This document shows positions 4,059 through 25,925 of a DNA stretch of 39,231 nt, piece after piece. Below the pieces are notes generated by a model that was not told where the DNA came from, made no database searches, and saw only the letters and a list, made by a program, of their open reading frames with translations. Both the position numbers and the translations under genes were made by a program. Source of the stretch: a virus; the IMG/VR virus record IMGVR_UViG_3300028378_000008, positions 1-39,231 of that record; one strand, given 5' to 3'. Positions within the stretch are counted from its first letter, which is position 1. Every line of letters begins with the position of its first letter.

Positions 4059-7000
4059 ATGGCAGATAATAAAAAAACAATATTTCAAAGTTTAGAGTCA
4101 GTATTAGACCCATTTGGTGGCACAGGTGCACCAGACAAAAATCAACAGCGTATTATTATCAAAGGTAAAACACCTGAAGATGTAAAACGTAGGGCTTTAG
4201 AAATTGAGCAGCAGCAGGAACTTAATAGTAAGTTCACAAAACTTAATGATCATGGCTTTCAAAAGGCAATGCAATATGAAGCTGCACGTTTACCAGCTTA
4301 TTTAGATTATGAAGGTATGGAATATTACCCATTAATCGCATCTGCATTAGATTTATTTATGGAAGAAGCTACTACTATCGACAAGGATGGTAAAATGCTT
4401 AAAATATATTCAGACAAAGAAAGAATTAAGCAACATTTAGAAGAATTCTTCTATGATATTATTAATGTAAATGTTAACCTACCATTTTGGACTCGTAACT
4501 TACCTATTGATGGTGACTCTATGATACCATTATTAGATGGAACTGAAATGTCAATAAAAGATATTTCTGAAAAATTAAAAAATAACTCACAAGAAGATAT
4601 TTGGACATATAGTGTACAGACCGAAACTAATAATATTGTTGGAGGAAAGATTGTATGGTGTGACAAAACAAGGGAAAACACACAACTTGTAAGAGTTACT
4701 TTAGATGATGGTACATATATTGATACTACACCTGATCATGAATTTATGACTAGAAGTGGTGAGTTTCTAAAGGCAAAAGATTTAAAAGCTAATCAAAGTC
4801 TAATGCCTTTTTACACTCGTAATAGTGAAAAACCTAAAGATAGTATACATGGATATGAAAAAGTCTATAATCCAAGTAGTAATCACTATAAATATACACA
4901 TAGCATAATTGCACATGAATTTCGTAGGGATATAACTGAAGAGAAGAAAACAGGTTTAACATATGATACTCATCATGTGGATTTTAATAAACTAAACAAT
5001 CATCCAAACAATCTACAGAGGTTATCTAGAGATGAGCATTTTTCATTACACAGAAAAATTGCACTTGATAATTTACACACACCTGAAATGATTGAAAAAA
5101 GATTAAAAGGTATTGATAAGTATTTGAGATCAGATGATAGAAAAAAATATTTATCTGAAAAAATGTTAGGTATATATCCTGAATATTTTAAAGAATATAA
5201 TAATTCTGAACTTCATGAAAGTCACAATAAAGTACGTAGTGAAAAAATGAAACAATATTGGTCTGATAAGAACTATAAACATTCAACTAAAGAAAAAATG
5301 ATATTATTTCTATCAGATAAATGTGTGAGTATTATTAATAAAATTATATGTGATTCAAACAGATATATTTCAAAGAATGAATTAGCAAAAACACTGAAAA
5401 ATGATAATGAATTCTTTTATGAACTTGATAAATACAATCAACAAAATAAGAGAGATAAAAAGAAATCTATAAACGGTAAAACCCTTAATGAGTTATTCAT
5501 TAGAAAATTCAATCTCACATATCAAGAATATGTTATAACTGTTAATCCAAAAATTTCTGAAGATAGCACATACAAAAAAGCATGTAATATCAGTAAAAGT
5601 AAAATAATTAATCACAAAGTAGTTTCAGTCGAATATTTGAATAATAAAAGAGATGTATACTGTATGGAAGTCGTTGGTATAGATGGCGAACATGATAGAC
5701 ATAATTTTGCAGTTTGTACAAAAAATATAGATGGGTCTTATTCAAGAAATGGTGTATTTGTATCCAACTGTAAATACGGAGACAACTTTGTTTATCTAAA
5801 AGGTAAAAAGAAAGAAGGTATTACCCATGCTAAACAAATGGTTAATTATGAGATGGAACGTATTGAAAGAGTAAAAGATAATAAATCACATCTTTATTTT
5901 AAACAACGTGAAACTGGTCAAGAATTTAAATTACTTGAGATGGCTCACTTTAGATTGTTAGGTGACGACAAGTACTTACCATATGGCTCTTCAATTCTTA
6001 ATAAGATTCGTAGAGCATTTAGACAACTTATTATGGCAGAAGATTCCATGCTTACCTACCGTATTACTCGTGCTGGTGAAAAAAGAGTCTTTAATATTGA
6101 TGTCGGTAACATGGATGAAGACGATATCCAAGAATACATGGGTAAAGTTATTTCTGGCTTTAAGAAAAAACAACAAGTCTATCCTGATGCAGGTCAGATC
6201 GATTATAGATACAATATTTTAGGAGTAGATGAAGATTATTTTATGCCTAAAAGAAACGGAAGTAACATGTCATCTATAGAAACATTACCGGGTGCTTGTC
6301 TATCTTTAGATACTAAAATTGAATTGCTTGATGGTAGATCACTTTCATTAGCAGATATAATCGATGAGTATGATAGTGGTAATACATTGTGGACTTATTC
6401 AATTGATTTAGAATCAGGTTCTATTGTACCTAGTCCAATAACATGGGCAGGTATAACTAGAAAGAATACCGAGGTTCTTAAATTAACATTAGATAATGGT
6501 GAAACAATTACATGTACACCTGACCATAAATTTCCAGTGAAATATGGTGACTATGTTGAAGCTAAAGATTTAAAAATGGGTCAATCATTATGGGCATTTA
6601 ATCAACGTAAAGAAAAAATTAAAAAACACTCTAAACAAGATTATAATCAAATATATGATCATAATTTAAATGAATGGGTTTTTACACATAGAATGGTTGA
6701 TGAATTCAATAACGGATTGAACAATAAAAAAAATACAGCATTACATCATGTAAATTTTAATAGATATGACAATACACTAGATAATTTAAAAAGAATGGAT
6801 TCTATCGAACACTTCAAACTTCATGCTAAATTTAGTAGAATCGGTAGTGATGCATATTCAGATAAATATCATAATGATGAAGAATTTCGTGAAAGAATAA
6901 ATGATAATTTAAGTGAATCTAGAAAAATCTATCATAATAAATTAAAAAATGACATAGATTTTTCTAGTTCAGTTAAACAAAAACAATCAATATCAAGAAT

Positions 7001-8669
7001 TAATTATTTAAATAATTTAAATCAAGAAGAATTTTTACAAGCAATTGCTCATCTGTCAACAGAGGGATCAAGAGTTGAATCAATTGAAACATTTAGAAAT
7101 AATCCTAATTATAATGAAATTATTAAAAATAGAACAGCGAAGCAAATAAATACAAAAAGTACTACTGATTGGAAAATTAAAGCATCTAGAATTGCAAAAA
7201 ATAGTTGGAAAAATAATGAGTATGTTAAAAGTGTAATTGAACCACAGACATTAAAATATTCAGAAAAATTAATTGATTTACTTTTAAATTATAGTGATGA
7301 ATATAATACTTTAACAGAAATACTTGAGAATAAAATTAATGTAAATAATAGTGAATTTAAAAAATTATTTATTGATTTAAATATTAATAATAAACAATTT
7401 TTAGGAAAATTCAATAAAATTACAATCAATAACATTAAAAAATTATTAAAATATTATGGATATAAAAATTGGAGTGATTTTAAATTGAAAAAACAATATT
7501 ATAATCATAAAATAATTAATATAGAATTTTTAAGTGAAAAAGTTGATACTGGTACATTAACTATTGATGGAGATAATTCATATCATGGAATACATAACTT
7601 TCCATTGTCATGTGGTATATTTACAAAAAATTCTAACTTAGATCAGATTGCGGATATTCAGTATTTGCGTGATAATTTATTTACTGGTTTAGGTGTTCCG
7701 AAGCCATTTTTAGGATTCCAGCAAGCAGCAGGTGATGGTAAGAATATGGCACAAATGGATATTAGATTTGCTAAAAAGGTAAATAGAATACAGCAAGCCA
7801 TTGTTCAAGAATTAAATAAGATGGCTATGATCCATTTATATCTACTTGGATTTAAAGATGACTATCAGAATTTCTCTTTAAGTTTAACTAATCCATCTAC
7901 ACAGCAAGAAATGCTTATGGGTGAGATGTTACAAGCTAAAGCACAGATATATACTGAGGTTACAAGAAACGAAGGTGGTATTGCAGCTATGTCACATACT
8001 AACGCTAAAAGACTACTGTTTAATAGTTCTGATGAAGAAATTATTAATGACTTTAAAATTCAGAGAATGGAAAGAGCATTATCACAAGAATTACAAGATA
8101 CACCATTGGTTATTCCAAAAACTGGTGTGTTTAAAGATTTGGATGATAAATATGGTTCTGATGAAATACCTCAAGGAGCACCAGAAGGTGGAGAAGGTAT
8201 GGGAGGTGATATGGAAGGTGTTGATGAACCTAATATACCACCAGCAGGTGATGCTGGTGAAAATGCACCACAAACCCCAGCAGATTTACCACCGATTGAA
8301 AGTGTTCAACTTAAAAAGCCAAATATGAGTGATGATCAGTATGGTTCATTATTAGAAAAAATGGTAAAGGGTGATGCTAAACCAAGTATAAATAAGAAAA
8401 AGAAAGATCGTGAAGTTATTAATGAAAACACGGAAAAAGTTAAAGGTTCTAATGATAGAGCAATTAAAATGGCAAGTGAAATAGAGTCTTTATTAAAAAA
8501 GAATGACAATAGCCTTAATGAAGATGAAACTCTTAAAGAGGCGATTAATGGTGAAAGACTTCAAAAACTTATAGACGAAAACATGAAAAACATATCTAAA
8601 TTCCATGTTAGCGATAGTAAACCAGAAAAAAAAGATGATCAAGAAGATGAAGAAGAAGATAAGAAATAA
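4059..8669 (+). CDS. 20: Portal vertex protein (gp20-like) with two inteins
   Basis: The 1536-residue precursor is the dodecameric portal at the packaging vertex, interrupted by two in-frame inteins (residues 149-570 and 747-1191). Joining the exteins gives about 669 residues, against 524 in T4, with an acidic extended C-terminus. The joined sequences read smoothly at both junctions: NLPFWTRNL to CKYGDNFVYL, and IETLPGA to SNLDQIADIQYL. The ETLPG and VPKPFLGF stretches are typical of gp20-type portals. The C-terminal tail (from about residue 1390) is Gly/Pro/Glu-rich, then Lys/Asp/Glu-rich, and is probably disordered. The gene is flanked by terminase and a probable core protein, the T4-like order. 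Function depends on both inteins splicing. Confidence 0.93.
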   Translation: MADNKKTIFQSLESVLDPFGGTGAPDKNQQRIIIKGKTPEDVKRRALEIEQQQELNSKFTKLNDHGFQKAMQYEAARLPAYLDYEGMEYYPLIASALDLFMEEATTIDKDGKMLKIYSDKERIKQHLEEFFYDIINVNVNLPFWTRNLPIDGDSMIPLLDGTEMSIKDISEKLKNNSQEDIWTYSVQTETNNIVGGKIVWCDKTRENTQLVRVTLDDGTYIDTTPDHEFMTRSGEFLKAKDLKANQSLMPFYTRNSEKPKDSIHGYEKVYNPSSNHYKYTHSIIAHEFRRDITEEKKTGLTYDTHHVDFNKLNNHPNNLQRLSRDEHFSLHRKIALDNLHTPEMIEKRLKGIDKYLRSDDRKKYLSEKMLGIYPEYFKEYNNSELHESHNKVRSEKMKQYWSDKNYKHSTKEKMILFLSDKCVSIINKIICDSNRYISKNELAKTLKNDNEFFYELDKYNQQNKRDKKKSINGKTLNELFIRKFNLTYQEYVITVNPKISEDSTYKKACNISKSKIINHKVVSVEYLNNKRDVYCMEVVGIDGEHDRHNFAVCTKNIDGSYSRNGVFVSNCKYGDNFVYLKGKKKEGITHAKQMVNYEMERIERVKDNKSHLYFKQRETGQEFKLLEMAHFRLLGDDKYLPYGSSILNKIRRAFRQLIMAEDSMLTYRITRAGEKRVFNIDVGNMDEDDIQEYMGKVISGFKKKQQVYPDAGQIDYRYNILGVDEDYFMPKRNGSNMSSIETLPGACLSLDTKIELLDGRSLSLADIIDEYDSGNTLWTYSIDLESGSIVPSPITWAGITRKNTEVLKLTLDNGETITCTPDHKFPVKYGDYVEAKDLKMGQSLWAFNQRKEKIKKHSKQDYNQIYDHNLNEWVFTHRMVDEFNNGLNNKKNTALHHVNFNRYDNTLDNLKRMDSIEHFKLHAKFSRIGSDAYSDKYHNDEEFRERINDNLSESRKIYHNKLKNDIDFSSSVKQKQSISRINYLNNLNQEEFLQAIAHLSTEGSRVESIETFRNNPNYNEIIKNRTAKQINTKSTTDWKIKASRIAKNSWKNNEYVKSVIEPQTLKYSEKLIDLLLNYSDEYNTLTEILENKINVNNSEFKKLFIDLNINNKQFLGKFNKITINNIKKLLKYYGYKNWSDFKLKKQYYNHKIINIEFLSEKVDTGTLTIDGDNSYHGIHNFPLSCGIFTKNSNLDQIADIQYLRDNLFTGLGVPKPFLGFQQAAGDGKNMAQMDIRFAKKVNRIQQAIVQELNKMAMIHLYLLGFKDDYQNFSLSLTNPSTQQEMLMGEMLQAKAQIYTEVTRNEGGIAAMSHTNAKRLLFNSSDEEIINDFKIQRMERALSQELQDTPLVIPKTGVFKDLDDKYGSDEIPQGAPEGGEGMGGDMEGVDEPNIPPAGDAGENAPQTPADLPPIESVQLKKPNMSDDQYGSLLEKMVKGDAKPSINKKKKDREVINENTEKVKGSNDRAIKMASEIESLLKKNDNSLNEDETLKEAINGERLQKLIDENMKNISKFHVSDSKPEKKDDQEDEEEDKK
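4503..5768 (+). mobile_element. Intein 1 in portal, HNH type, Pro at position 1
   Basis: This 422-residue intein spans portal residues 149-570. Its N-terminal block, PIDGDSMIPLLDG, aligns position by position with CLSLDTKIELLDG of the second intein, so position 1 is Pro149 instead of the usual Cys or Ser. Block B is TTPDH (about 223-227). The C-terminal blocks are VYCMEV (533-538), HNF (548-550) and GVFVSN. The intein ends in Asn570 and is followed by Cys571 of the extein. The residue before the final Asn is Ser rather than His. An HNH homing-endonuclease core (THHVDFN, then HPNNL, about 304-319) lies in the middle. The boundaries are supported by the continuous extein reading. Confidence 0.85.
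6297..7631 (+). mobile_element. Intein 2 in portal, HNH type
   Basis: This 445-residue intein spans portal residues 747-1191. It starts with Cys747 (CLSLDTKIELLDG), has block B CTPDH (819-823) and ends GIFTKN before Ser1192. The residue before the final Asn is Lys rather than His. The central HNH core is ALHHVNFN plus LDNLKRM (about 894-913), closely similar in layout to intein 1, so the two inteins are probably paralogues. The stretch around 6900-7500 is visibly more AT-rich than the portal exteins (long runs of AAT, ATT and AAA codons), which fits an acquired element. Confidence 0.88.
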
Positions 8670-20127: not shown

Positions 20128-20161
20128 ATATTTATCTGAATTAAAACATATAGTGTATAAC

Positions 20162-21676
20162 ATGAATAAAATAGTAACAAAAAATAAAGATATATTTATT
20201 GTAAATGAAACTGATTGTAATGAAAGAAAATCATTACTAAATATAAAGAATACCAATAATTTAAATAGTATATACATATATAAGTCTGAATATGAAAATA
20301 AAAGAGAAATTATAGACGAATTAATTAATTACCATAATGATGAAATTGATATTAGAGTATATGCTAGAAAATGTAATATAGAATTAATTCACGATAGTCA
20401 TATCAAAGGAGAGTTTTTAAATAATAATCATATACAAGGTAATGATAAATCAACCATAATATATGGTGCATATTATAATAATGAGTTGGTTGCAATAATG
20501 TCATTCGATGACAAGAGAAATATGTCATCAGGTGTTAAAACAAACTCATATGAATTATCAAGATTTTGTACTAAAAAAGGTATTAATGTTATAGGTATCT
20601 TTAATAAATTATTAAAGTGTTTTATTATTAACTTTAAACCATCAAAAATAATATCATTTGCAGATAGAAGATTTACACTTAGAGATAAAAATATTTATAG
20701 TAGTAATGGTTTTAGATTAATTAAAACATTACCATGTGATTATAAATATTATAATAAACTTAATCCTCAAAAATTATTACATAAATTTGGATTTGGTAAA
20801 TCTTCAATAAAAAAGAAATATCCTTTATATTATGACATAAAAAAAACAGAATATGAGATGATGTTTGATATAGGATATACAAGAGTTTGGGATTGTGGTA
20901 AATATAGATACGAGTTAGATATTGACAAAAACAACAACACAATTTTTGGTTTCATTTATAAAATAATGAATAAATCCAATAATAAAATTTATATTGGTCA
21001 AACAACTAGAAATTTAAATAAAAGAATATATGAATATAAAAAAGCACTAAATAGTGAATCTTTTTATAATAAAATTCTTCAAAATTCATTTAAAAAATAT
21101 GGATGGAATAATTTTGAATTCACAATAATAGATACTGCAATTAGTTTATTCGATTTGAATGAAAAAGAAATATATTATATTAATAAATATAATTCAAGAG
21201 ATAAAAACTTAGGATATAATATTGAATTAGGAGGTAGAAATTCAATTCCCTCCGAAGAAACAATAAGAAAGATGTCTGTTGCTGGCATAGGTAGAAAACA
21301 GTCTCAAGAATGGATATATAAAAGAATTCCATTAAAAGGAACTAAAGAAGCACTTAAACATGGTAGAACTAAAACAGAAAAACAAAAGAAACATTTATCT
21401 GATATATCACCAAAATATTGGAGTGGTAAAACTAGATCAAAGGAGACCATAGATAAAATATCAACCACTAAGAAAAAAAATGGATTAAATGATTTACAAA
21501 AGAAAATTTTATGTAAAAAAGTAATTTCATATAATCCAATCACTAATGAAGTTATTAATATTTTTGAATCTACAAATGAGGCATCTAAATATTATTCTAT
21601 TTCACAATCGACTATTAGTAGAAGATGTTGTGGAGTAACAAAAAATAAAGGTAATATATATTTTAAGTATATGTGA
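20162..21676 (+). CDS. GIY-YIG homing endonuclease with extra N-terminal domain
   Basis: The 504-residue free-standing homing endonuclease was probably inserted after the capsid gene. The start chosen is ATG at 20162; an in-frame GTG lies at 20153. Residues ~95-250 form a domain with YGAYYNNELVAIMSF, YELSRFCTKKG, IISFADRR and GYTRVWDCG. I know this type from other phage homing endonucleases and think it has a GNAT-like fold. The GIY-YIG nuclease follows at 263-345 (GFIYKI, KIYIGQT, Arg288, Glu336). NUMOD3-like DNA-binding repeats are at about 372-435 (GIGRKQS, WSGKTRSKE), and a NUMOD1/IENR1-like helix-turn-helix is at about 452-504. It is strongly AT-rich compared with the capsid gene. Its stop codon overlaps the end of the adjacent RNA-like segment. 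A degenerate late-like box (TATTTATC) lies at 20129-20136. Confidence 0.9.
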   Translation: MNKIVTKNKDIFIVNETDCNERKSLLNIKNTNNLNSIYIYKSEYENKREIIDELINYHNDEIDIRVYARKCNIELIHDSHIKGEFLNNNHIQGNDKSTIIYGAYYNNELVAIMSFDDKRNMSSGVKTNSYELSRFCTKKGINVIGIFNKLLKCFIINFKPSKIISFADRRFTLRDKNIYSSNGFRLIKTLPCDYKYYNKLNPQKLLHKFGFGKSSIKKKYPLYYDIKKTEYEMMFDIGYTRVWDCGKYRYELDIDKNNNTIFGFIYKIMNKSNNKIYIGQTTRNLNKRIYEYKKALNSESFYNKILQNSFKKYGWNNFEFTIIDTAISLFDLNEKEIYYINKYNSRDKNLGYNIELGGRNSIPSEETIRKMSVAGIGRKQSQEWIYKRIPLKGTKEALKHGRTKTEKQKKHLSDISPKYWSGKTRSKETIDKISTTKKKNGLNDLQKKILCKKVISYNPITNEVINIFESTNEASKYYSISQSTISRRCCGVTKNKGNIYFKYM

Positions 21677-21960
21677 ACCACCTACACACTGAAAAGATGT
21701 ATGGGCTTCCTGCACAACACATAGCCTAATGGCTTACGTTAGTGTACAAAGGGTTGTCCCTAACCCCGAAATTCTTTTACATTCAGCTTCAGTTCGTAGA
21801 GAGTATTAGTACAAAAATATGTTTTGGAGTTCTGGGTATTTCGTTTGTTCTATTAGTGAATCATCGCCAGATACCATTAGTCAGTACATTTTAAGTCAAG
21901 GTTAGCATTTGTCGCTTACATCCCATTGGCGAAACGACCAATGAGTATTACTCTCCGACA
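21673..21960 (-). ncRNA. Candidate TnpB-type omega (guide) RNA, no tnpB adjacent
   Basis: This 290-bp non-coding block is clearly GC-richer (about 45% near its right end) than its flanks. Read on the minus strand, its 3' part has the layout of IS200/IS605-type right ends and TnpB guide-RNA scaffolds. GCAGGAAGCCC (21713-21703) is followed by an imperfect hairpin (CCCATACA / TGTGTAGG, 21705-21681) and terminal GGTTCAC (21679-21673). Other likely stems are GGGTT/AACCC (21751-21766), AGCC/GGCT (21723-21734), and CATTGG/CCAATG with an inner CG/CG pair (21924-21943). The bases after GGTTCAC, the guide position, would read back into the end of the endonuclease gene (21672-21653). No tnpB or tnpA is beside it. 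Identification is from remembered family features, not a covariance search. A group I intron remnant is an alternative. Confidence 0.42.
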
Positions 21961-21975
21961 TATAAATAAATCTTA

Positions 21976-21986: not shown

Positions 21987-22451
21987 ATGATGAAGAAACT
22001 TATTACATACATAGGACTATTATTTTTAATGTTATCTACTAGCTTAATTAGTAGCTCTGATATTAATGTAGATAATCCAAACAGTATATACCATCATTTT
22101 GGTAACTTCATATTTCAAAATACTTCATTACCAAATACATTTACTTCATATGACCTATGGATAACAAAAGAATTAATTAGTAATAATGAAAACTCAAAAT
22201 CATATATTTATTACAAATATAAATATAAATTAATAGGTGTTAGTAAATCAACATATTATGGTGGTGTAAGAAATACTTTTATGGAAGGATTTCAAATATT
22301 TTATAATAATAGTGCCGAACCAATGAATAATTATCCACTAAATCTTTATATTCAAAAAAATCCAACAGTGTTATATGAAATAAAGAGTAACGATGAAACA
22401 CCTAGTTTCTACGTTAGCTGGACTAACTCATATTACGATGCGAGACAATGA
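21987..22451 (+). CDS. Small exported protein of unknown function
   Basis: The 154-residue protein begins with a typical signal peptide: MMKK, a hydrophobic core ITYIGLLFLMLST, then SLISSS. There is no Cys for a lipobox. The mature part is rich in Tyr, Asn and Ser and looks beta-structured, suggesting a periplasmic or outer-surface product. Two ATG codons (21987 and 21990) are possible; the second is likelier if the transcript starts close to the late box. The stop overlaps the ATG of the following membrane protein gene (ATGA), so the two are translationally coupled. A lysis or superinfection role is possible but not shown by the sequence. Confidence 0.75.
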   Translation: MMKKLITYIGLLFLMLSTSLISSSDINVDNPNSIYHHFGNFIFQNTSLPNTFTSYDLWITKELISNNENSKSYIYYKYKYKLIGVSKSTYYGGVRNTFMEGFQIFYNNSAEPMNNYPLNLYIQKNPTVLYEIKSNDETPSFYVSWTNSYYDARQ

Positions 22452-22807: not shown

Positions 22808-23078
22808 CAATAATCTCATCACCGTTTTCATATTGCATTAAAACTTCTGAGACTTCTTCTTCTATTTTTTTCTTTTCAGCATATTCTTTTATTGCTTCAA
22901 GAATATAACTTTGAAGATCGAATTTAGCACCATCTTCAATTTTATGTTCATTCTTAATCATTGGATGCCATTCCCTATTTATTTTTTCTTCAAGTATAAT
23001 AGTAAACATATTCATGTTCTGTGCAACAAATAATCTTACGTCTTCTAAATCTTTTATTCTAAAATTTCTTGTAATCAT
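22797..23078 (-). CDS. Unknown small protein after helicase
   Basis: The start is chosen as the ATG at 23078 because it overlaps the helicase stop as ATGA. A longer version from 23105 exists in the same frame. From 23078 the product has 93 residues, is charged and helical, has no Cys cluster or membrane segment, and ends in VND. It is the last gene of the helicase operon. Function unknown. Confidence 0.68.
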   Translation of the reverse strand: MITRNFRIKDLEDVRLFVAQNMNMFTIILEEKINREWHPMIKNEHKIEDGAKFDLQSYILEAIKEYAEKKKIEEEVSEVLMQYENGDEIIVND

Positions 23079-25600
23079 TCTTCTGTTAAATCTATTGGCT
23101 GCCATTCATGATCATAAATTAATTCATGTTTAGCTCTAGTTATTGCTACGTATTCTAGATTTTTCTCTTGTTGATACTCCCAAGCTTTACCAGTTTTTAG
23201 TGGTAATTTATCTGGACATGCTATAAAGACTCTATCTGCTTCAAGACCCTTTGCTTTATGTACAGTACTTAACATAATACCATCAATTTTATCAGTAAAG
23301 ATATCTCCTATCTTTTTTCTAAGCTGTGCTATGGTTTCTACACTATGACAAAGAAATTGAAGAGTTTCTACACTATCCTTCAACTTTAAATACCCACTAT
23401 GCTCTTTATAATCTAGAATACCTTGTTTTCTTAGTTTTAACTTAAGATTATCTAATTCTGTAACCCAATTACCAAGTAGTCTACCTATTGAATTAAACTC
23501 CTTAGTCATCTCAATTAACGATAAACCAATATCACTACCCTTGATCATTGCTTTACGTCCAGTGGATAAATATTCCATGTAGAGTTGTAATAACGGTGCA
23601 GTTGTTCTACAAAGAACAAAATCACCTGCCTCTGGTTCAGCTATAACATCACCGCTTCTAACTTGTCCTTCATGAGCATTATCCATTGCCTTTAGATCAG
23701 GAACAATTTCATTTGCTTTTTTTACAATCTCTTTACCACAACGGAATGTATGTGTTAATGGTAATACTTCAGTGTTTTTAAACTTTCTAAACCATTCAAA
23801 TGAATTTTGATCAGCACCTGCAAAACTATAGATACTTTGGAAAGGATCACCGATAGCAATTAAACGACCAGTAATTTTCTTTTTGTTAACTCTATCTCTC
23901 TTCAACATTTTGAAGATCATAGTTTGCTGTGCCTTATTTAAATCCTGTGCCTCATCTACGATCACATAATCTTGAGGAAATAACCATATTTTCTTATCAA
24001 CGGCAGGTAGAAAAATCATATCAGTAAAATCGAATGTTTTTCTATCTTTCATTAATATCTCTAATACTGATACTGCACGTTTGATATCTTTAGGTGTTTT
24101 ATATTTAACATCATACTTATTAGCCAATATTTCAACCCATTTTCTCTCAAGTGTTAATGTTGATCTACATAAATTAACCAATATTTTTAATGATTTCAAA
24201 TACTCATTTCTAATTGCAGGTGCATTTGGAAATTCATCAGCTAAACCCCATGATGTAGACTTTTTCTTTAAGATATGATCAACTTTAAACTCATCCATCT
24301 TAATACTATCACCATAAGTTCTTTTAATAGCACCCATACCCAAACCATGCATTGTATAACAATTCACGTGTTCTGGTAGCTTTTCTTTTAATTCAGACTG
24401 GATGTGTTTATTAAATGCAAGAAAAGTAATACTACCTTCATTAGGTATTAATTTTAATGCTTCAATTGCGGTAGTCGTATTATGTGTTATTGTGAAATCG
24501 CCTAATAAAAATCTACCATTACCATCCAATGTAAAACCATAATATTCACCGACACCAATATTTTCTACTTTAAATCTAGTCCTTAATACAGATTTTATTT
24601 GTTGGCGTGAAGTGTAATTATTTTTTAATGAAAAAATATCACTATAATCACCTGATATTGTTATTCTCCAATAGTATCCAGTAAAGTTTAAACTTTTTAT
24701 TGTTGATTTTTTGTATGTTTTGTAAGCAACTAAACCTAAACTTCTGCATAAATAAAGAATGTCATCCGATAATTTATCATATTTAGTAGTATACTCAATT
24801 GAGTTACCACTATAGTGACCATCACTGTCGAGTAAACCTCCAAGTAAACGTAATCTATTATCTCTTGAGTTAATTAAGTAATTTACAGGTATACCTATAT
24901 CATCACCAAATTTACAGGTATCAAATTCATACTTAAGAATATTTCTATTATTACTATAATTTTCAGTAGTCAAAGCAATAGTATAACATCCATTATCACC
25001 ACTATATTTTTTAACTTTTGTAGTTATATTATCAAATTTAAGATTCTCAAAATATTGAATGATTTCAATATCATCCTCATTAATAGTAAATTTAGGTGAT
25101 GTATTAACCTTAGTACCGTCTCCCAACCATAATCCAACTAAGTATGGGTCACATATAGTATCTTGTGTTGGATATTCAACACCAACTCTTGTTAATCTAA
25201 AATTTCTAAAGTTGCCATTACTATATTTATTATGATTAACAATTTCATTTAATGGTTTATCTATTAATATTTTTTTTCTATCGTCATGTAATGTCATTAC
25301 ATGCACATCATTACATACCCAAGAATCACCTTTGTTAGGAATTACTTTATATAATTCACCAACACCAACATTCGTGTTTAAAATTTTTCTAGGTTGATTA
25401 TCATCACCCATTAACAAATCACCATCAACTATTTTTTGAACAGGTTTAATTGTACCATCATACATTAGGACAGGTGTATCTCTTCCAAGACATTTACCAC
25501 ATCCTGCACGTGCTTCAATAAGTAGATTTTCTTTTCTTTTTGCTACATACTTAAAGATTCTATCTTGTTCTTTAGTAGGCTTAAATGCTATCTTTACCAT
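23075..25600 (-). CDS. UvrD-like SF1 helicase with intein in its P-loop
   Basis: This superfamily 1A DNA helicase has 841 residues from the ATG at 25600, about 503 after intein removal. In-frame ATGs at 25612 and 25618 are alternatives that overlap the upstream gene more. Motif I is EARAGCGK (29-36), continued by TTTA after the intein. Motif II is VDEAQD (548-553), motif III is GDPFQSIYSFAG (584-595), and the later motifs are HTFRCGKE, STVHKAKGLEADRVF and YVAITRAKHE (817-826). All expected catalytic residues are present once spliced. It probably acts in replication or recombination. The gene sits between two small unknown genes in a minus-strand operon with a Bacteroidota-type promoter, so it is likely expressed before the late genes. 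Confidence 0.92.
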   Translation of the reverse strand: MVKIAFKPTKEQDRIFKYVAKRKENLLIEARAGCGKCLGRDTPVLMYDGTIKPVQKIVDGDLLMGDDNQPRKILNTNVGVGELYKVIPNKGDSWVCNDVHVMTLHDDRKKILIDKPLNEIVNHNKYSNGNFRNFRLTRVGVEYPTQDTICDPYLVGLWLGDGTKVNTSPKFTINEDDIEIIQYFENLKFDNITTKVKKYSGDNGCYTIALTTENYSNNRNILKYEFDTCKFGDDIGIPVNYLINSRDNRLRLLGGLLDSDGHYSGNSIEYTTKYDKLSDDILYLCRSLGLVAYKTYKKSTIKSLNFTGYYWRITISGDYSDIFSLKNNYTSRQQIKSVLRTRFKVENIGVGEYYGFTLDGNGRFLLGDFTITHNTTTAIEALKLIPNEGSITFLAFNKHIQSELKEKLPEHVNCYTMHGLGMGAIKRTYGDSIKMDEFKVDHILKKKSTSWGLADEFPNAPAIRNEYLKSLKILVNLCRSTLTLERKWVEILANKYDVKYKTPKDIKRAVSVLEILMKDRKTFDFTDMIFLPAVDKKIWLFPQDYVIVDEAQDLNKAQQTMIFKMLKRDRVNKKKITGRLIAIGDPFQSIYSFAGADQNSFEWFRKFKNTEVLPLTHTFRCGKEIVKKANEIVPDLKAMDNAHEGQVRSGDVIAEPEAGDFVLCRTTAPLLQLYMEYLSTGRKAMIKGSDIGLSLIEMTKEFNSIGRLLGNWVTELDNLKLKLRKQGILDYKEHSGYLKLKDSVETLQFLCHSVETIAQLRKKIGDIFTDKIDGIMLSTVHKAKGLEADRVFIACPDKLPLKTGKAWEYQQEKNLEYVAITRAKHELIYDHEWQPIDLTEE
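24479..25492 (-). mobile_element. LAGLIDADG intein in helicase Walker A
   Basis: The 338-residue intein lies between GCGK and TTTA of the P-loop. It starts with Cys (CLGRDTPVLMYDG) and ends FTITHN, with canonical penultimate His and terminal Asn, followed by Thr. Two LAGLIDADG-type motifs are visible: LVGLWLGDGT (helicase residues 154-163) and LLGGLLDSDG (252-261). Both carry the catalytic Asp, so the homing endonuclease may be active. Confidence 0.92.
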
Positions 25601-25925
25601 CGTTGTTTTCATTATCATCCTTATTTTTATTGTTAAGGATATCTTTTAATTCATTTAAACTATCATCTTGCTCTTTAATTAAAACAGCTAATTGACCACT
25701 AAGTTCTGTAATCATTTTAGATGTAGTCACTAACTCAGTCATAAACCTTGGGTCTAGTTTTTGTTCTGAATTATTATATCTAACTATTAAGTCGTTCAAT
25801 GAATATGCAACTAATTCCATAGCCATAAAACGATGTTGTGGTTCAACAGAATAATCCTTTTCTATATGAATATATGGTCTTCCATCTTCTTCATCTTGTC
25901 TAATATCGTATTCAAATGTGTACAT
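25581..25925 (-). CDS. Unknown acidic protein before helicase
   Basis: The start is taken as the ATG at 25925 (MYTFEYDIRQ); an in-frame ATG at 25955 would place the start within the promoter box. The 114-residue product is acidic, with a helical middle (VAYSLNDLIV, then LSGQLAVLIKEQDD) and an Asn/Asp/Lys-rich disordered tail. The 3' end overlaps the helicase start by 20 bp, so the genes are probably coupled. No recognised domain. Confidence 0.72.
   Translation of the reverse strand: MYTFEYDIRQDEEDGRPYIHIEKDYSVEPQHRFMAMELVAYSLNDLIVRYNNSEQKLDPRFMTELVTTSKMITELSGQLAVLIKEQDDSLNELKDILNNKNKDDNENNDGKDSI

Follow-up and report, generated by a model that had tools for sequence, protein, structure and literature searches.

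The non-coding block at positions 21673-21961 (minus strand) of the window is very probably a non-autonomous derivative of an IS605-type transposon, resembling the palindrome-associated transposable elements (PATEs), that has retained its omega-RNA region and is carried by T4-like phages probably infecting Bacteroidota. The window is the complete 39,231-base virus contig of IMG/VR record IMGVR_UViG_3300028378_000008. Judged from sequence, the identification rests on both transposon ends, the stubs of both transposon genes, the target motif, the place of insertion and homology to intact elements. The element is of a known kind (a PATE-type IS605 derivative) in an unusual place, and the pattern across its family outranks this copy in interest.

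The element is of IS605 type, 289 bases long and internally deleted. On the minus strand, TTTAT is followed by the left end with its hairpin, a tnpA stub, the deletion junction, a tnpB stub, the omega-RNA scaffold and the right end. The features of the locus are:

21962-21966, minus strand: target motif (TAM) TTTAT, directly 5' of the left end (sequence checked)
21906-21961, minus strand: left end (LE) with hairpin CATTGGTCGTTTCGCCAATG and conserved GGATGTAAGCGACAAA, placed by LE model R1 and DNA matches
21777-21905, plus strand (antisense to the element): 3' stub of tnpA (Y1 transposase), ending in FWSSGYFVCSISESSPDTISQYILSQG and a stop, with one internal stop
21726-21776, minus strand: 3' stub of tnpB, KNFGVRDNPLYTNVSH with its stop codon retained, doubling as the 5' part of the omega-RNA scaffold
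21673-21800, minus strand: omega-RNA (reRNA) scaffold and right end (RE), ending in GGTTCAC; 5' limit approximate
about 21680-21706, minus strand: 3' hairpin CCCATACATC/GTGTGTAGG, within the longer 3'-terminal helix of the alignment fold
21657-21672, minus strand: predicted 16-nt guide (ATATACTTAAAATATA), read from the flank and matching the uninterrupted insertion site
20153-21676, plus strand: GIY-YIG homing endonuclease gene, outside the element (Pfam PF01541, E 2.4e-8)
21987-22451, plus strand: 154-aa ORF of unknown function (orf154), with a homologue directly after the endonuclease gene in L058

The sequence-only reading had reported GCAGGAAGCCC, a hairpin and GGTTCAC closing at 21673 on the minus strand of a GC-richer, non-coding block, and the sequence is as it described. 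The GC content of the block is 37%; the flanking homing-endonuclease gene has about 20-25% and the whole capsid-to-helicase interval 25%. No ORF longer than 50 aa lies in the block, and a tRNA/tmRNA search found none. Its assignment to the RE and omega-RNA region of a TnpB-type IS200/IS605 element was borne out by the intact tnpA+tnpB element L225, whose tnpB 3' end and RE are 88.7% identical to the last 119 nt of the block, and similar blocks do lie beside tnpB genes, as in L225 itself. The tnpB stub matches the C-terminus of the intact L225 TnpB at 15 of 16 residues (93.75%). The RE scored 43.5 bits (E 2e-9) against model R2, in whose seed the window sequence is included, and its GGAAGCCC...GGTTCAC is a slightly degenerate copy of the GAAGCCC-hairpin-GTAGTTCAC of relatives. 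The extent first given was right at the 21673 end only: the block reaches 21961 (21966 with the target motif) and has an LE too. Likewise, tnpB and tnpA are absent as intact genes from the contig, as was said, but 3' stubs of both are present. An isolated guide-RNA gene is not supported: the block is a whole transposon, with LE and the tnpA and tnpB stubs.

The window LE scored 76 bits (E 1.9e-18) against model R1, which has the window among its seven seed sequences, and independent DNA matches link it to the LEs of related phages (E 1e-20 to 5e-6). When the whole records of 50 relatives were searched, the 5' part of the minus-strand block matched four of them strongly, in this same range (E 1e-20 to 5e-6); TnpB is present in the records of 19 of the 50. 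In G036 the LE match lies directly upstream of tnpB as the left end of that element, and in G013 it opens an element in which two unknown ORFs and tnpB accompany a Y1 transposase gene (tnpA; E 2e-32 to Pfam PF01797). The aligned LEs share a hairpin conserved with paired changes and the core GGATGTAAGCGACAAA. Intact tnpB and tnpA genes are bordered by ends homologous to those of the window element, both in related phages and in genomes of Bacteroidota. Weak LE matches were also seen at G034:64495 and G036:330576. A solitary LE at G047:14675-14737 (L203), with no RE, in a 203-kb phage record with no TnpB match, is an element remnant. At L145:3840-4831 (G013:17839-18830), ORFs of 169 and 161 aa lie between an IS605-type tnpA and tnpB; neither had a Pfam or PHROG match, and we read them as cargo or captured phage genes.

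The tnpA stub matches Pfam PF01797 (Y1_Tnp) above the curated cut-off (27.2 bits, E 1e-7) and the TnpA of G013 at 50% identity across 42 aa, and it abuts the tnpB stub at a deletion junction near 21776/21777. With TnpA reduced to a 3' stub carrying an internal stop, the window element is a non-autonomous IS605 derivative. A decayed phage gene was considered and rejected: six-frame tblastn against a set lacking the insertion sequences gave weak chance matches only, and the tnpA stub emerged once related ones were included.

BLAST of the block against cultured phages gave chance-level matches only; one sister element matched there only through its tnpA end, in Helicobacter phages, and another had no match. 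The literal pattern GCAGGAAGCCC-N10-30-GGTTCAC was discarded as a diagnostic, its 13 matches in viral contigs showing no sign of tnpB or of a matching hairpin. Rfam gave no match to the block at the gathering cut-off, and at E<=10 only chance snoRNA-type hits (E 2.6-8.5); intact relatives also go unrecognised by Rfam, so the missing match is uninformative about an omega-RNA. No homologous block was found at the equivalent locus of relatives by blastn and nhmmer around the capsid gene, as expected for an insertion.

The place of insertion can be read from the flanks. Joined without the element, they give an endonuclease ending in ...KGNIYFKYI and a stop, with no target duplication. In L058, whose locus is element-free, the endonuclease ends in ...KGNYFFYYE and a stop, and the orf154 homologue follows about 20 nt on with nothing between. 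The element thus inserted in the short gap between the endonuclease gene and orf154, so that the present endonuclease stop codon (TGA, 21674-21676) is the element's own, supplied by its RE. No exact 24-nt empty site (TTTAT plus guide) was found in viral contigs. The window endonuclease is itself a fusion of two halves that relatives also carry separately. Residues 40-256 correspond to the C-terminal domain of PHROG 3339/559 homing endonucleases, and the GIY-YIG half spans residues 266-350. On the other side, the TTTAT target overlaps TATAAATA (21961-21968, plus strand), which we take to be a T4-type late-promoter-like sequence, ahead of the 154-aa ORF; insertion leaves TATAAATA intact. Targeting of late promoters by the element was considered and rejected, TTTAT being the shared motif and the fuller TATTTATA flanking several elements, not most.

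Gp23-type capsid and Gp20-type portal genes mark the phage as T4-like. By capsid similarity, Flavobacterium phages come closest among cultured ones, yet their identity is only about 31%. Records of uncultured relatives reach 365 kb, so the 39-kb contig is a fragment, and little can be concluded from its lack of an intact tnpB or tnpA. The same LEs occur in several copies in Sphingobacterium and also in Algoriphagus and Galbibacter genomes, which indicates that the T4-like phages bearing the element probably have Bacteroidota hosts. Elsewhere in the window, intein splicing (PF14890) is matched twice in the portal gene (4059-8669), and a Hint/LAGLIDADG intein lies in a UvrD-like helicase gene (23075-25618); the phage group is rich in homing elements.

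A census of the family combined an LE-core scan of viral contigs with two covariance models; the window and the previously identified relatives were included in the count, and a few entries duplicate one another almost exactly across assemblies. In total, 50 unique elements had both ends: 11 had tnpA plus tnpB, with a GIY-YIG gene as well in one of these; eight had tnpB only; four had no intact tnpB but a homing endonuclease gene (GIY-YIG in three, HNH in one); and 27, including the window element, were short (180-523 nt) with no intact tnpB. TTTAT preceded 45 of the 50, and two of the other five begin at a contig edge. Among the paired cases in Bacteroidota genomes no short element lacking tnpB was recovered, but contig ends truncate many copies there, so no comparison is drawn. 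At L149 (G035:72000-80000) and L236, short or intact IS605 elements lie amid dense phage tRNA gene arrays.

Short forms moved after losing tnpB, as junctions shared by copies at different sites show. L222 and L277, at two places on one contig, and L286, on another contig, have a common deletion junction and 94-96% identity, yet their flanks differ. The same holds for L266 and L209:11143, with 98% identity. The 93-kb contig IMGVR_UViG_3300025839_000011 carries at least three short and at least two tnpB-bearing elements, which makes enzymes supplied in trans plausible. Short elements are common in related phages and still jump, which suggests that they use enzymes borrowed from intact copies.

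Homing endonuclease genes also lie inside IS605 ends. In two elements a GIY-YIG gene replaces tnpB between LE and RE, and the endonuclease frames run into the RE, ending in ...TSEA and in ...TPEAHPIAFGVGG, respectively, each followed by a stop:

L204:3502-4191 (G013:12501-13190), minus strand: GIY-YIG gene within IS605 ends, in the tnpB position
L274, element at 890, minus strand: GIY-YIG-for-tnpB element within IS605 ends

Further GIY-YIG genes were found near the tnpA end (L264, L250 and L283) and after tnpB (L245), and an HNH gene lies within the ends of L251. L315 holds another GIY-YIG or HNH insertion within such an element. A literature search, covering papers outside subscription, found no description of GIY-YIG genes within IS605 ends, and novelty is not firmly claimed.

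The length of RE that short elements keep bears on what the scaffold is for. Published TnpB reRNA is about 150 nt, of which the last 16 nt or so are a guide derived from the flank (Karvelis et al., PMC8612924), and the guide of the window element was positioned from this architecture. The short elements were sorted by hand into about 18 deletion events, with breakpoints taken as the ends of BLAST matches. The kept RE measured 115-148 nt in 12 of the 18 and at least 115 nt in 16 (median 129.5); the length kept on the left side varied from 60 to 360. For 12 of 18 events to fall in this band, P is about 4e-7 under a uniform breakpoint from 57 to 300 nt and about 1e-4 from 57 to 200 nt; both values are indicative only, given the grouping by eye and the BLAST-end breakpoints. 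The short elements L244 and L253 have no full scaffold, and the GIY-YIG-carrying L204, L274 and L264 keep just 54-57 nt of RE, a length that therefore seems enough for movement. Retention of RE near guide-RNA length suggests that guides may have been kept for a TnpB acting in trans.

Peel-and-paste transposition plus homing is the known TnpB scheme. The parent of the window element was very probably an IS605-type element with divergent tnpA and tnpB and a TTTAT target, in which a single deletion brought the 3' ends of the two genes together, sparing the LE, both stubs, the scaffold and the RE. Movement would depend on TnpA provided in trans, its source being intact copies of the element residing in the same phage, in a phage that co-infects or in the host. 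The retained omega-RNA, with a 3' guide read from the flank, could be loaded by a TnpB that acts in trans; this TnpB would cut sites lacking the element, and repair would restore the element there. Extended to the whole phage group, the proposal is tentative and falls short of an even chance: guide-only transposons, IS605 derivatives without tnpB, would be kept at about 200-350 nt because their omega-RNA, given a new guide by every insertion site, is loaded by the TnpB of intact copies, and would home during infection into phage genomes lacking the element as guide-RNA parasites, while in parallel GIY-YIG and HNH endonucleases would invade or replace tnpB inside the same ends.

That the block is structured rests on comparison. 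The free-energy fold of the window sequence alone is unexceptional (z -1.2 over 326 nt, -0.9 over the last 120 nt), whereas relatives reach z -3.1 to -3.7, and an alignment of six sequences, the window among them, shows compensatory changes at 17 of 35 pairs, against a shuffle mean of 5.8 and at most 3 in slid controls. The scaffold of the window's subtype has four helices. The marks of a TnpB omega-RNA were found together: a tnpB 3' end joined to the RE, a conserved fold, an end at the element boundary and a guide in the flank. As the authors read the pair table, the window copy can still make 34 of the 35 consensus pairs; one terminal pair is broken (C-A) and the fold is poorer than in relatives, so the copy may be decaying. 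Beside this mismatch in the terminal hairpin, it has GTGGTTCAC instead of GTAGTTCAC and a diverged LE; it is mildly decayed and may be dead.

Under an account that shares the same origin, the window copy is a dead relic that neither moves nor guides, its scaffold persisting merely because little time has elapsed. The chances of this are evenly balanced. The degenerate terminal hairpin and LE, the weak fold energy and a contig with neither tnpA nor tnpB agree with it, as does the search for sisters, in which none had exactly the window's junction and the nearest, L209:5238, was 80% identical. Sister short elements are clearly mobile, however, most deletion events kept the full scaffold, and the nearly complete set of consensus pairs in the window copy speaks against it.

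It is also conceivable, at somewhat below even chances, that the 115-148 nt of RE are kept because TnpA needs them and not for guide use, in which case these would be ordinary transposase-dependent miniature elements. Subterminal hairpins are what IS605 transposases recognise, and known PATEs have been explained in this way (PMC3119063). Against this, L204 and L274 sit at different TTTAT sites with 54-56 nt of RE, so a short RE appears sufficient.

A joint homing system of omega-RNA and adjacent GIY-YIG endonuclease, the functional pairing first suggested for the window, is very improbable. The block and the endonuclease gene do adjoin and have a stop codon in common, and G013 and L274 have a GIY-YIG gene between IS605 ends. 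The window endonuclease, however, lies outside LE and RE on the opposite strand and merely takes its stop codon from the RE; its family follows the capsid gene in many relatives that have no block; and the GIY-YIG-bearing L204, L274 and L264 have lost the scaffold. Equally improbable is a domesticated regulatory RNA, on the model of nuclease-dead TnpB-like repressors, or a different class of RNA, for instance a group I intron: the block is intergenic, ahead of a late-promoter-like sequence and without tnpB alongside, but nothing supported domestication, no Rfam covariance model matched at the gathering cut-off, relatives do not conserve the block at this locus, the LE/RE/TAM architecture is intact with stubs of both genes, and no TnpB-like protein is nearby.

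TnpB is the ancestor of Cas12, and the reason for its persistence is an open question. Intact, nuclease-less and endonuclease-swapped versions of one transposon in phage genomes form a natural experiment, in which what stays after tnpB loss reveals the target of selection. If guides are used in trans, the short elements would be parasites of TnpB at the RNA level, with phage co-infection as their arena. The GIY-YIG-for-tnpB elements suggest that RNA-guided and protein-guided nucleases can fill one role within one transposon.

Compared with known systems, the window element has the LE and RE with subterminal hairpins, the motif directly 5' of the LE and the lack of target duplication of IS605-type (IS200/IS605) elements. 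Divergent tnpA and tnpB are present in its intact relatives L225, L228, L262, L276 and L209:8285, whereas in the window both genes are cut to 3' stubs. The target is TTTAT here, TTAC in IS608 and TTGAT in ISDra2. Standalone, trans-acting omega-RNAs of IscB were reportedly described by Altae-Tran and colleagues in 2021; these too are scaffolds away from their nuclease gene, but they belong to IscB, not TnpB, and to bacterial, not phage, genomes.

The reRNA of ISDra2 TnpB, about 150 nt, consists of the tnpB 3' end, the RE and about 16 nt of flank, and its TAM is the transposition target (PMC8612924). The scaffold make-up and TAM are alike in the window element, which has no tnpB in cis and an RNA predicted from sequence. 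PATEs are known from Haloquadratum (PMC3119063), and a PATE-like element of Halanaerobium has 271 nt: 28 nt of LE, the last 58 nt of tnpB and 160 nt of RE (PMC7290912). PATEs likewise derive from IS605 elements by a core deletion that leaves fused ends and no transposase; they are thought to be moved in trans. The Halanaerobium element keeps the tnpB 3' end as the window element does. The core deletion and fused IS605 ends that define PATEs were found in the window element; the elements here differ in being phage-borne and in many copies. Their kept RE has guide-RNA length, a point absent from the accessible parts of the PATE literature. Finally, TnpB drives IS200/605 elements in multicopy plasmids as a gene drive (PMC11870625), where the guide, taken from the insertion site, directs TnpB to cut copies that lack the element. 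Replicating phage genomes are multicopy too; in the plasmids the nuclease is encoded in cis, unlike in the window element.
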